62,746 nt of DNA, taken from positions 1 through 62,746 of the forward strand of contig CAMNRM010000027.1 in the NCBI GenBank assembly GCA_946553025.1. Direction: 5' to 3'. Below, one piece after another: positions 29,380 through 48,957 of this stretch (position 1 is the stretch's first letter; every line of letters begins with the position of its first letter). Both the position numbers and the translations under genes were made by a program. Source of the stretch: an uncultured Clostridium sp. (GTDB lineage: Bacteria; Bacillota; Clostridia; Lachnospirales; Lachnospiraceae). The notes beneath the pieces are model-generated. The model was not told the origin of the DNA. It searched no databases and worked only from the letters and a program-made list of their open reading frames with translations.

Positions 29380-31884
29380 TTAATTTCCGGGAACCCAGGC
29401 TCCGTCAGCGCCTACATAGTATCCGTCAATCACCGTATCCGCAAACAACGCACCCTGTCTGCCGTCGGAAATCGGGTTGAAGTAATACCACTTATCTGCT
29501 ACCTGATACCATCCGGTTACCATAGCACCGTTTGCATCTGCGTAGAAATAAGCATTGTAGAACGGATCAAAGATTACTCCGGTCAGCATAGCGCCCTGGA
29601 AGCTTCCCTCTGCCGGGTTTAAGTAGTACCAGCGGCCATTGATAAACATCCATCCGGTCACCATATCGCCTGCTTCGTTGAAATAATACCACTGATTATT
29701 GATGTAGCCCCAGGTGTTTACTGCATATTCGCCGTTGGTCTTTAAGAACTTCCAGCCGTTTTCACCCATCGTCCAGGTTCCGGTCATGCTGGTAATCGTT
29801 GAAGAACTTCCGCCGATAACATGTCTTCTCGAACCGCCACCGGAGGAGCTGGAACCGCCGCCGTTGTTGTTATTGCCACCCTGGTTGCTTCCTTCTTCTT
29901 TTCCAATATAAGGTTTACCATCTTTTTCAAAACGTGCTACGGCATAGAAATAAAAATCATCTCTGTTTTCTGGTACAAGACGAGTACTGGATTCATATTC
30001 TGCACAATCCAGTGTCTGCCATCCAGCAAACTTATAATTATACATTTGGGGGGTAAAATCAATTGGCATAGTCTTTAATAATTCTTCAATTTTACTCCAG
30101 TTATCACCATTCGTATAATTAAACCGACGGAAACCATAGTTAGGTATTTCATCAAATTCATTTTCAACAACAATTTTACCATCATACTGGAATAATCCAG
30201 GAACAAAACTCATCCCTGCACCAATTTCAACAAACAAATATACGACTTGTTCCTGTTCTTCATAAGTCAAAATCATTGGAAGGTCATACCAGCCCAATTT
30301 TAACTCGTCTTTACTTTTTACCTCATTAGTTTCCGCAACATAGTTAAAAAGATTCCAATCATTTTCTCTATCACTTAACCATGGCCATCTATCTGCATCC
30401 TCTTCCGTTGGAATACGAAGCTTCGCCCCCGTTACAGTTTTAAATTCTTTTGCTGTTGCATCCCATTCTTCTACGCTTATAACACCATTATATCTTCCTT
30501 CAGTGGTTACTAATGTAGGCTCTAACCAGGCATCAATATAACCTTCATCCTCATAATCATTATCGCCAAAGTCATATTCTTTAAATGTAGGTGCTATTTC
30601 ACAACTATTTTCAAGAATCAGTTGATGACTCCCTCTAACAACTTCTTTGCTTGAAGTTTCTGTATTTGTTATAGTATAAGATTCACAATACTTATTACCA
30701 TGAGCTATTCCATCATAATAAAGCATGGTTCCCTTATCAAGTTCCACTTCTTCATTAACTGGCAGATAAATCACACTATATTCATCCGTTGTTTCATCTT
30801 CTGTCCAGGCAGCAATGTAGCCGTCGTCCGAACCAGTTACTTTAACCTTTACTTTTTCAACATCCGGTTCTTTTTCTGAAGCTTTAACTTTTACAAAGAA
30901 GAACGGGCTGAATCCCTGCGTTAAATCTAATGCAAAACTCATATTCCCCGTATCCGGATCTACTTCAACCGGAATAATGTAGGTATCTTTCTCTGCAAAA
31001 TGAATAGCAATAATACGCTCGCCTGCTTCTTTATCCACATCTTTTAAATCATCCGGAACAGGAAGTACAACCGTAACAAACTTCTTATCCCCGGTAAGAT
31101 CTGCACTGTTAAAGTTTTCAATCTTAATATCAATAGGAACAATCGGTGTATCTTTCACTAATTCATAAACGTTTTCACCTGGTTTAACTGCAGCATTGAT
31201 CTGCACTAATTTTTCAGTCAGTTCTGCATATTCTTTTTGATCTTCCTCTTTTACTTCATTAAGCTCTAATTTCGCATCCTGCGGCATACCTACAGCAACC
31301 AGATCATCAAATGCTTTGTCAACAGTTGACGGAAGATTCTGCGGATATTTCCATCCTGCATCCAGTACTGCACCATTATAAATCTCTTCCTTCGCTCCTA
31401 ACACTTTTGGCACTGTTCCGGAATTATCATACCAACCTGCAAAATTCAGACCTAAGTTTTCTTCAATTTTTAACATCTCTGGCTGCAAATTAGTTTCATC
31501 TGCTGCCAATTCTGCAAACCAATGATCAGCTTCTTCAAGATTTACATAATAGCATCCATCTTCGTTTTTAAAAAGCTGTTCACTTTCCACATACGCATCA
31601 AATTCTTCACCATCCATCTTAAAGGTTCTGGTAATGGAACTCTGGGTGGCTATCTTGTTTTCATCCTGTGTCAGTTCTGTTTTTTTTGCATTACTGAACG
31701 TCGCCACAGATGATTTGGAAGCAGTTTCAAAATATCCTGCTCCGGAATTAAAAGTTACGGCAACTTCGCGCATTGTGCTCGGTTGTCCGACTCCGCCCGC
31801 AGCAAACGCCGATAACACATTCGTCGCAGTCATTGCAACGATTAAGGCGGTTGCCACTTGTTGTTTGAGTTTTTTCATACTCAT
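29380..31884 (-). CDS. secreted cell-wall-binding surface protein
   Basis: An 834-residue protein. The start at 31884 (AAGGAGG 8 nt upstream) gives a signal peptide MSMKKLKQQVATALIVAMTA and onwards, ending near SAFAA. The body contains beta-rich modules with GWYDNSG and AGWQTLD elements of the bacterial-repeat (flg_new-like) type. A Gly/Ser/Asn linker (NNNNGGGSSSSGGGS) precedes four to five C-terminal choline/glucan-binding-type repeats (GWKFLKTNGEY, WYYFNEAGDMVTGW, RWYYLNP, KWYYFNP). It should sit non-covalently on the wall. Upstream lies a DNA segment that looks invertible and carries a promoter aimed at this gene, so phase-variable expression is likely. Confidence 0.85.
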   Translation of the reverse strand: MSMKKLKQQVATALIVAMTATNVLSAFAAGGVGQPSTMREVAVTFNSGAGYFETASKSSVATFSNAKKTELTQDENKIATQSSITRTFKMDGEEFDAYVESEQLFKNEDGCYYVNLEEADHWFAELAADETNLQPEMLKIEENLGLNFAGWYDNSGTVPKVLGAKEEIYNGAVLDAGWKYPQNLPSTVDKAFDDLVAVGMPQDAKLELNEVKEEDQKEYAELTEKLVQINAAVKPGENVYELVKDTPIVPIDIKIENFNSADLTGDKKFVTVVLPVPDDLKDVDKEAGERIIAIHFAEKDTYIIPVEVDPDTGNMSFALDLTQGFSPFFFVKVKASEKEPDVEKVKVKVTGSDDGYIAAWTEDETTDEYSVIYLPVNEEVELDKGTMLYYDGIAHGNKYCESYTITNTETSSKEVVRGSHQLILENSCEIAPTFKEYDFGDNDYEDEGYIDAWLEPTLVTTEGRYNGVISVEEWDATAKEFKTVTGAKLRIPTEEDADRWPWLSDRENDWNLFNYVAETNEVKSKDELKLGWYDLPMILTYEEQEQVVYLFVEIGAGMSFVPGLFQYDGKIVVENEFDEIPNYGFRRFNYTNGDNWSKIEELLKTMPIDFTPQMYNYKFAGWQTLDCAEYESSTRLVPENRDDFYFYAVARFEKDGKPYIGKEEGSNQGGNNNNGGGSSSSGGGSRRHVIGGSSSTITSMTGTWTMGENGWKFLKTNGEYAVNTWGYINNQWYYFNEAGDMVTGWMFINGRWYYLNPAEGSFQGAMLTGVIFDPFYNAYFYADANGAMVTGWYQVADKWYYFNPISDGRQGALFADTVIDGYYVGADGAWVPGN

Positions 31885-32063
31885 GTTAATCCTCCTTGCA
31901 TTTTTATTATTTAGTTTCAGGAATTTCCCCAAAACCATAAAAATAATACTGTCCCGACAGAAATGTAAGAACAGTATATTTCTCAGGATTATAAATGTTC
32001 AAAAGCTGTAAATGAATGGTCAAAATCAGCTTACCCCCCTCATAAATACAGGCTTTCTCGGCT

Positions 32064-32089
32064 TTTGCAAAATGTATAGGTTTTGCAAA
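32064..32089 (+). repeat. left recombination-site-like inverted repeat
   Basis: 26 bp made of arms TTTGCAAAA and TTTTGCAAA (reverse complements of each other) around an asymmetric 8-bp spacer TGTATAGG. The arm-8-arm layout is that of a tyrosine-recombinase core site. The exact reverse complement occurs at 32191-32216. Confidence 0.8.
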
Positions 32090-32116
32090 TATTTTATCAA
32101 CTCAATTTTTAATATA

Positions 32117-32145
32117 ATCTTAATGTAAAATTACTAAAAAGTCAA
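32117..32145 (-). promoter_or_regulatory. promoter inside the putative invertible segment
   Basis: On the minus strand TTGACT (32145-32140), a 17-bp spacer and TAAGAT (32122-32117) point at the wall-binding protein gene, so the present orientation would be ON. Inversion between the flanking sites would turn it towards the 3' end of the Uma2 gene. Confidence 0.55.
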
Positions 32146-32190
32146 TAAGATCTCAAGCCTTTTTTAGAATATTTTAATATAAAAATTTTT

Positions 32191-32216
32191 TTTGCAAAAC
32201 CTATACATTTTGCAAA
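32191..32216 (-). repeat. right recombination-site-like inverted repeat
   Basis: Exact reverse complement of 32064-32089: same 9-bp arms, with the spacer reading CCTATACA. The outer boundaries span 153 bp, a size typical of invertible promoters in Clostridia. Confidence 0.8.
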
Positions 32217-32313
32217 TATTTTTTTTTGTAAATAAATAGCATTTTGCCCCATATTTTTCCAAAATCTTTATATTTTTCCCAAAAAACAAAAAATACGCAG
32301 AAATATCCCATGA

Positions 32314-32350
32314 AAAAAAGCGAATGGCCGTTAAAAACCTTCGCTTTTTT
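32314..32350 (-). terminator. terminator of the Uma2-family gene (bidirectional shape)
   Basis: AAAAAAGCGAA (32314-32324) pairs with TTCGCTTTTTT (32340-32350); both strands end in a U-run. Confidence 0.75.
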
Positions 32351-32396
32351 CTTCCATCTTCCAAATATCGAACAGAAATCACTCTTCAAACACACA

Positions 32397-32948
32397 CTAA
32401 GAAAGTAAATTGGCAATTTTAATACTCAATTCTTTACAGATACAAGAAGTAATTTCAATATCAAAGCTGTATTGTCCGGTTTTTTCATTGTTCTCGAAAT
32501 CAAAGACATTCACCGTTCTGTTTAAAGGATTTACAATCCAGTATTCTCTTACCCCTGCCGAGTGGTATTTAAAAAGCTTTATCCCATAGTCCATACGTTC
32601 CGTACTGGGAGAAATAATCTCAATAACCCAATCCGGGGCACCATTGCACCCTCTGTCATCCAGTTTGTTTTTATCGCATATAACCGATATATCCGGTTCA
32701 ACATAAGTTTTATTGTCAGCATTTAAAAAAACAGCAAATGGTGCAGGGTAAACTTCACACTCTCCATGTTTTGCATCAATATAATTTGTAATTACCTGCG
32801 AAAGACGATTAATAAGTTTTTGATGAATCCGCATAGGCGGAGCCATATTATAAATTTGTCCGTCAATTAATTCTGCTCTTTGTCCATCTGGCAGAGCATA
32901 AATATAATCAACAGTACAGATAGCCTTATCTTTTACTGCGCTATTCAT
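32397..32948 (-). CDS. Uma2-family (DUF820) putative endonuclease
   Basis: A 183-residue protein of the Uma2/DUF820 group, a PD-(D/E)xK-fold family. It shows AELIDGQIYNMAPP, HQKLINRLS, then the metal-site acids in YVEPDISVIC and DWVIEIISPST, followed by FKYHSAGVREYWIVNP. The length fits the family (about 180-190). Members are widespread in Cyanobacteria and Firmicutes, often in many copies; their biological targets are not established. AAGGGGAG lies 5 nt before the ATG. The gene is followed by its own terminator and then the putative invertible segment. Confidence 0.85.
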   Translation of the reverse strand: MNSAVKDKAICTVDYIYALPDGQRAELIDGQIYNMAPPMRIHQKLINRLSQVITNYIDAKHGECEVYPAPFAVFLNADNKTYVEPDISVICDKNKLDDRGCNGAPDWVIEIISPSTERMDYGIKLFKYHSAGVREYWIVNPLNRTVNVFDFENNEKTGQYSFDIEITSCICKELSIKIANLLS

Positions 32949-37537: not shown

Positions 37538-37713
37538 GGTTACAGTTCACGGGGGTGCGTAGGCGGGGGCATGTTCCGTGAGGAATCCCCTCAAAAAACA
37601 CCGGCGCTTAACGAGGTCTTTTCGAGTTTAGCGTCCGCTGTGTTCTTTTGCGGAGCGAGAGCGCGGTGACGACGGAATATGCCCCCACCGCAGCAGCCCC
37701 GTGAACTGTAACC
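37538..37713. mobile_element. MITE-like structured element, complete copy A
   Basis: 176 bp with 17-bp perfect terminal inverted repeats (37538-37554 and 37697-37713, outer part GGTTACAGTTCACGGGG). It is flanked by a 6-bp direct repeat CAACCT (37532-37537 and 37714-37719), as expected for a target-site duplication. There is no open frame. The interior contains CATGTTCCGTGAGGAATCC and GCGGTGACGACGGAA blocks shared with copies at 48745-48957 and 22345-22392. It must be mobilised by a transposase encoded elsewhere. Confidence 0.8.
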
Positions 37714-48744: not shown

Positions 48745-48957
48745 ACCAGCGAAAGCGGAGCCATGTTCCGTGAGGAATCCCCTCAAAAAACGCCGGCGCT
48801 TCGCATTGAGCACTTAGCGAGGTTTTTTCGAGCTTAGTGCGAAAGTGGTTCCTCTGAGCAAAGAGAAGAGGAACTTCTTAAATGTTGAGTTTAGCGTCCG
48901 CTGCGTTCTTTTGCGGAGCGGGAGCGCGGTGACGACGGAACATGGCTCCGCTGTAGC
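48745..48957. mobile_element. MITE-like structured element, copy B, inside the alpha-glucoside operon
   Basis: GCGGAGCCATGTTCCGT (48755-48771) is the exact reverse complement of 48935-48951. The blocks GTGAGGAATCCCCTC, CCGGCGCTT and GAGCGCGGTGACGACGGAA match copy A at 37538-37713, while the outer arms differ in sequence but remain complementary, and copy B has about 50 extra interior bases. It lies between the second permease and the GH31 gene. No clear target duplication could be read. Confidence 0.75.

Follow-up and report, generated by a model that had tools for sequence, protein, structure and literature searches.

The short segment 32064-32216 of a contig from an uncultured Clostridium is probably a DNA-inversion switch that would drive the gene of a secreted wall-binding protein, and the enzyme that flips it, acting in trans, would most likely be a serine recombinase. 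The window, by which we mean the whole stretch of 62,746 nucleotides that was analysed, is contig C27 of a genome of 4.87 Mb in 126 contigs (G000). Two 26-bp inverted sites enclose a promoter-like sequence here, further copies of the same site are dispersed over the genome, sister segments carry related promoters, and another genome has the same build in front of a TnpB-like gene; from these observations we infer that inversion takes place.

The inverted repeat and its putative promoter

The original prediction described two 26-bp sequences as exact reverse complements, each with the arms TTTGCAAAA and TTTTGCAAA around an 8-bp centre, and the sequence comparison agrees on every point: the left site reads TTTGCAAAATGTATAGGTTTTGCAAA, and 101 nt separate it from its partner (Table 1). 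Three perfect inverted repeats of at least 16 bp with a gap of 30-1000 are found in the window (26, 18 and 17 bp), the 18- and 17-bp ones at 48754-48952 and 37538-37713. When the window was shuffled 100 times with its dinucleotides preserved, no perfect inverted repeat exceeded 17 bp, 16 bp being reached in four shuffles and 20 bp in none, and we therefore judge the 26-bp repeat to be real and reject a chance origin. The segment has a G+C content of 19%, and the window of 45%. Two other readings of the repeat were also discarded, that of a terminator (none found in 31860-32400) and that of a known RNA family (no Rfam match at the gathering score in the window and five loci).

Table 1. Coordinates of the switch on contig C27 and of related features in the same genome and at other loci
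Feature	Location	Strand	Remarks
Left recombination site, 26 bp	C27: 32064..32089	.	matches 32191-32216 as its exact reverse complement; core among the ten zero-mismatch copies of the genome
Right recombination site, 26 bp	C27: 32191..32216	.	exact reverse complement of 32064-32089; zero-mismatch core site
Putative invertible segment, 153 bp	C27: 32064..32216	-	oriented toward the surface gene in the assembly
Putative promoter TTGACT-17-TAAGAT, within the segment	C27: 32117..32145	-	consensus score 9/12; position as in sister switches
Possible second promoter TTGAAC-18-TATACT, outside the segment (rival)	C27: 31973..32002	-	score 9/12
Ribosome-binding site AGGAGG	C27: 31891..31896	-	before the ATG of the 29380-31884 gene; by eye
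Presumed target, 834-aa secreted wall-binding (choline-binding-repeat) protein	C27: 29380..31884	-	C-terminal choline-binding-type repeats
Uma2-family gene, other side of the segment	C27: 32397..32948	-	convergent with the flipped promoter
Inverted site pairs	C10 61837/61964; C12 30622/30759; C14 36408/36546; C27 window pair		core without mismatch
TnpB-like genes	L011:6947-8410; L013:6048-7415; L066 (C16:49709-50998)		after each gene come an RNA-like stretch and genes of a membrane and a secreted protein (for C16, by eye)
RNA-like stretches	L011:8411-8849; L013:5475-6047 and relatives		
Serine recombinase relative	C22		two site-like 26-mers of its own downstream, of unclear orientation, by eye; missed by the TACAC regex
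Serine recombinase relative	C1		N-terminus looks out of frame, by eye
Serine recombinase relative	C39:19467		most distant of the four
Serine recombinase relative	C39:35820-36425		best candidate

Both promoters named in the original prediction, the inner one aimed at the 834-residue protein gene and the outer one that could replace it, are present on the minus strand. A promoter scan of 31860-32400 gave five hits, all of 9/12, where shuffled sequence gives 2.7 on average (sd 1.6); this number of hits is not significant per se. Besides the inner promoter, two others lie within the segment or reach into it. We accept the inner promoter chiefly because its -10 element, TAAGAT, aligns over the -10 of the sister segments on contigs C10, C12 and C14, gap-free up to the site, the consensus score alone being unremarkable. 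The C27 interior has no clear relation to the five interiors compared with it (z -0.1 to 2.4, 100 shuffles each), those of C10, C12 and C14 giving z 0.7 to 2.4. C27 has an inverted site pair around a promoter that is recognised by position only.

The presumed target has a signal-peptide-like start, as judged by eye. As assembled, the inner promoter points at this gene, which we read as the ON state, where a sigma-A-type promoter would fire leftward and the wall-binding protein would be made. After inversion of the interior by the recombinase the promoter would face the convergent gene, and the wall protein would be off or left to the outside promoter. Since the flipped promoter would meet the Uma2-family gene head-on, no gene is apparently served in the other state, and the switch would be of a plain ON/OFF type. 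One may also suppose that the segment inverts, by either type of enzyme, while the outside promoter mainly drives the wall-protein gene, and its consensus score is indeed equal to that of the inner one. The inner promoter, however, shares its position with the promoters of the sister switches, and we consider a leading role of the outside promoter to be quite unlikely.

A common site in one genome

The site core, TTGCAAAA-NNTATANN-TTTTGCAA, was found in ten zero-mismatch copies in the genome, the next-best place having three mismatches, and a backwards control of the search gave one place. In each of the four complete pairs the sites are in inverted orientation, at a period of 127-138 bp, and enclose a promoter-like sequence. 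Contig C49 ends, and contig C48 starts, exactly with a site, and the orientation of these two sites fits a fifth pair with its interior missing. Breaks at the inner site edges would be expected if the reads held both orientations, and a fifth switch probably lies between the two contigs; a synteny comparison with four congeners found no C48 homologue near homologues of the C49 gene. Near the C48 site (L015:720-860) the sequence looks, by eye, like the leftover end of a wall-binding repeat and resembles the C-terminus of the presumed target of the window switch, and a 36-aa peptide of C48 gave no Pfam hits.

Compared with 100 shuffles each, the interiors of C10, C12 and C14 prove to be mutually related (z 5.4 to 14.3), and they have similar promoter sequences; those of C10 and C14 can also be read as a FliA/SigD-like element TTAAGTTT-N11-GACGATAT. 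In the assembled orientation the C10 and C14 promoters point away from TnpB-like genes, and that of C12 away from a BTAD gene. In the stretch L012:7882-15000 the C12 switch faces this BTAD regulator, a protein whose PilZ match stays below cut-off, and a protein of 1773 aa or more whose LPXTG-type match is below cut-off as well. Eight sites outside the window pair, a promoter position shared by the sister switches, and the same arrangement in the other genome (locus L035, described below) speak together for an invertible promoter that serves a surface protein and is flipped by a recombinase in trans, as had been predicted from the window.

The same sites could be thought to belong to a static palindromic element, that is, to the ends of a MITE or to protein-binding sites which never invert. 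A dimeric regulator might bind to quasi-palindromic sites, and such an element would also be favoured by the single copies of the site that exist elsewhere. We hold it to be very unlikely all the same, given that the complete pairs are all in inverted orientation around promoter-like sequence and that two contigs break exactly at sites; no target-site duplication was seen by eye, and the C27 interior is unlike those of C10 and C14, on which two grounds a MITE was rejected.

An inversion switch is thus the reading that we retain, and the sites themselves tell something of the enzyme. The central TATA is constant in all ten of them, and the 8-bp centre differs between the paired sites in two of the four complete pairs, those of C12 and C14, by a single position in either case. 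Taken together, the within-pair differences and the constant TATA would suit an enzyme that requires a match of the innermost bases only.

Related sites in other genomes

The exact 26-bp pattern is absent from all ten other sampled congeners, and a core site within one mismatch was found in four of 396 other sampled genomes of the family, one site in each. A scan of viral contigs for the site gave no hits. A scan of genome contigs gave 14 stretches; a partner in inverted orientation no farther than 1500 bp away, with 2 mismatches, is present in L035 only, the best one in the other stretches having at least 6. L035, which comes from a MAG of another genome, has an inverted pair with the arms of the present sites except for one base, which accounts for one of the two mismatches of the pair, and its promoter is related to that of C10 (z 7.6); we take this promoter to be FliA-like as well. 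Its inverton is bordered on one side by a TnpB-like gene (55% identity) and on the other by the gene of a 205-aa serine recombinase, whose end lies about 35 bp from the site. Locus L166 (G358:C83) has a core-matching site with a C10-like AAA gene beside it and, 2.1 kb from the core site, an 86%-identical serine recombinase; the contig ends 40 bp beyond the site. L037 is the same place as L166, and its stretch ends near the site too.

At a further locus, L169 (G315:C9), the inverton in front of a TnpB-like gene has another site, CCAAAAACTACACTTTTTGG. Its interior is related to those of C10, C14 and L035 (z 3.8 to 4.8), and the C12 interior is weakly related to both L035 (z 1.1) and L169 (z 1.7).

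TnpB-like genes and their RNA-like tails

Relatives of the TnpB-like genes occur in 16 of 397 family genomes, the present one included. An alignment of the C14 gene to 8iaz, at what we take to be the catalytic RuvC positions, gives D to S, E to V and the third D to E, and the C10 gene, read against C14, has A, A and E at these places; both genes look nuclease-dead, or TldR-like, from this loss of the RuvC acids. A short inverton of the same build was found upstream in four of 26 TnpB-like loci (C10, C14, L035 and L169), and L177 and L178 have other inverted repeats. In the remaining 20 loci none was found at 20/24 in up to 900 bp, less than 200 bp of upstream sequence having been scanned in two of them, and the C16 gene (L189) likewise has no inverton upstream.

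A conserved RNA-like stretch was found by pattern in 19 distinct TnpB-like loci (29 entries scanned, some of them of the same locus), and the conserved guide-like tail in which it ends is typically ...CCAATATGCCTTATTT, with variants. The guide position proposed first was given up, the stretch having proved to be a variable hairpin. A guide-target search in the fetched stretches turned up only the tails as such and, as no more than possible targets, places that differ at two of 14 positions. The C10 and C14 genes are followed by genes for a membrane protein and a secreted protein, with others that look glycosyltransferase-like by eye; the secreted proteins matched no Pfam family at E 0.001, and an inspection by eye of the C10 and C14 ORF lists revealed neither csrA nor flagellin.

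Which recombinase may act in trans

A profile search of the genome matched PF00589 at 24 places and PF00239 at 26. Contig C27 has no match to either profile, in agreement with the earlier statement that the window holds no recombinase gene, and PF00239 has no match on any of the six site-bearing contigs. We propose that a trans-acting serine recombinase of about 200 aa, of the resolvase/invertase family, would bind both quasi-palindromic sites of the window. Four relatives of the L035 enzyme are encoded in the genome (57-66% identity), among which the one at C39:35820 was chosen as the candidate by elimination (Table 1). Its gene precedes, by about 3 kb, one for a homologue of the membrane protein of C10/C14 (34-36% identity), and the only quasi-palindrome of at least 10/12 in its surroundings is terminator-like, 167 bp upstream.

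Among 30 serine-recombinase loci listed from a longer set of matches, six have an adjacent short inverted pair with a period of 119-139 bp, and 11 have a 26-bp site with the centre TACAC, always at most about 170 bp downstream of the gene, by a regular expression that was composed after the results of the inverted-pair scan were seen. The union of the two scans covers 13 of the 30 listed loci, and 17 have no site by either scan, including most of those closest to the L166 enzyme. The same expression found no site in 20-kb stretches around the four serine enzymes of the present genome.

In common with systems of the Hin/Mpi type, the genome has a small (about 200 aa) Resolvase-domain recombinase, and its 26-bp sites are quasi-palindromic about a 2-bp centre. 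The core dinucleotide of Hin/Mpi-type serine invertase systems is asymmetric, whereas it is AT in all ten sites found here. A self-complementary central dinucleotide provides no directionality at the exchange step for a serine enzyme, and the serine reading is weakened by this. It is also weakened by the 17 listed loci devoid of sites and by the affinities of the candidate, whose first NCBIfam match is the excision recombinase XisF with 60.9 bits (cut-off 375), the Mpi model giving 41.3 bits (cut-off 272). In the four enzymes scanned the Mpi-family score is 41 to 45 bits, below that cut-off, and XisF scores above Mpi in three of the four (60.9, 50.7 and 49.5 bits), with 44 vs 41 in the fourth. 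The best solved relatives of the candidate are Sin/bin3-type and gamma-delta resolvases, ahead of the DNA-invertase chains 4m6f and 3uj3. Since XisF, Sin and gamma-delta are nearer to it than Mpi and the DNA-invertase chains, a role as an invertase is read from the sites alone. In a tree where 5 of 30 inner branches were well supported, the candidate had no clear grouping with the L035 and L205 enzymes.

The original prediction took the sites for those of a tyrosine recombinase, and a 194-aa XerA/FimB-like enzyme of this kind, encoded at C10:58245-58826, might flip the same switch in trans; we regard this as possible, though rather unlikely. Its distance from the C10 pair is 3 kb, and it is the recombinase nearest to any site of the genome. 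The asymmetric 8-bp centre would supply directionality for a tyrosine enzyme, and in excerpts of a gut-inverton study the enriched invertase families named are tyrosine-type or integrases (PMC11892184). Of 20 homologues fetched (49-66% identity), 11 have their gene enclosed by a perfect inverted repeat of at least 16 bp, and such repeats consist of near-palindromic sites, so the homologues are plausibly invertases. Both kinds of enzyme are enriched together with the TnpB-like gene (E <= 1e-40), the serine one (E <= 1e-70) being present in 13 of 16 such genomes vs 82 of 397 overall (Fisher p 1.8e-7) and the tyrosine one in 6 of 16 vs 38 of 397 (p 0.002), in counts which ignore relatedness and use E-value limits that differ for the three proteins.

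It is the sites that argue against the tyrosine enzyme. Where those of its homologues are clear, they read TGCAACATT-N9-AATGTTGCA (L102, L104, L112) or a variant of it, unlike the sites of the present genome, and the span from TGCA to TGCA is 27 bp in them vs 22 bp here; FimB/RecV-like homologues flanked by the same site were thus not found, sequence and spacing both being different, and the C10 gene itself is not flanked by sites of the homologue type. L035 and L166, whose sites have the arms of the present ones, contain a serine-type recombinase and no relative of the tyrosine enzyme in their stretches, although G358 has one elsewhere. Outside G000 the tyrosine enzyme occurs in 37 sampled genomes, and just one of these, G358, has a core site with at most one mismatch, in a single copy. 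With centres that differ within two of the four pairs and small serine recombinases adjoining related sites, the tyrosine part of the original prediction is the less favoured reading.

The inverted repeats around these homologues (L098-L099, L101-L104, L106-L107, L112 and L114-L115) measure 0.69-0.88 kb end to end, and several of the loci adjoin sequence that reads, by eye, as csrA or flagellin. Such loci are probably self-inverting switches in their own right.

Returning to the serine recombinase, the same enzyme would flip three or four sister segments, those of the TnpB-like cassettes (C10 and C14), of the BTAD regulator (C12) and probably the one between C49 and C48. It is tempting to go further and to see in one small serine recombinase a global switch that randomises surface proteins and TnpB-derived RNA-guided repressors in each cell, a doubtful proposal that we put forward tentatively. 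If it is true, inversion would set the RNA-guided repression programme and the surface coat of every cell outside the csrA/flagellin context. Four or five putative invertible promoters with one common site in one genome make a defined and testable set, in which DNA inversion would be tied to nuclease-dead-looking TnpB-derived genes at loci with no recognised csrA or flagellin.

Comparison with known systems

RecV is a tyrosine recombinase, and Bacteroides fragilis belongs to a phylum different from that of the genome analysed here. The flagellar switch of Clostridioides difficile is a segment of 154 bp bounded by inverted repeats, and RecV is required at several loci including cwpV (PMC7446863); the length of the segment is nearly that of the C27 one (153 bp), and its repeats are imperfect. 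Salmonella Hin/hix, in the part of PMC3798978 that deals with it, also combines 26-bp sites and promoter inversion by a serine recombinase, with a segment of about 1 kb, whereas the present one is of 153 bp with no recombinase inside. In Bacteroides fragilis one serine recombinase, Mpi, is described in the corresponding part of PMC4747536 as inverting 13 regions in trans, which carry promoters of surface genes. The likeness of our set to this regulon is in the many promoters that would be inverted in trans; the loci are fewer here, and the candidate enzymes match the Mpi model far below its cut-off, the first NCBIfam match being XisF. In a survey of a defined gut community the median number of invertons in a Firmicutes_A genome was 3 (PMC11892184).

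A literature search combining invertible promoter, Lachnospiraceae and invertase found no paper, and TnpB, phase variation and DNA inversion are treated together, for example, in PMC13418256. This publication describes csrA-tldR loci with hin and an inverton of about 120 bp in Oscillibacter and Flavonifractor plautii, so that the combination of hin, inverton and TldR is already published for csrA/flagellin loci (PMC13418256). Like those loci, the ones described here have a short invertible promoter with a TnpB-derived gene downstream, in L035 a small serine recombinase beside it, and a FliA-like promoter in C10, C14 and L035. Unlike them, C10 and C14 are followed by a membrane and a secreted protein and not by csrA/fliC, the sites are dispersed over the genome, and the window switch would serve a wall protein with a sigma-A-type promoter. 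The switch of the window is an ordinary kind of element in an unusual set, in which C10 and C14 are close to the published csrA-tldR build.
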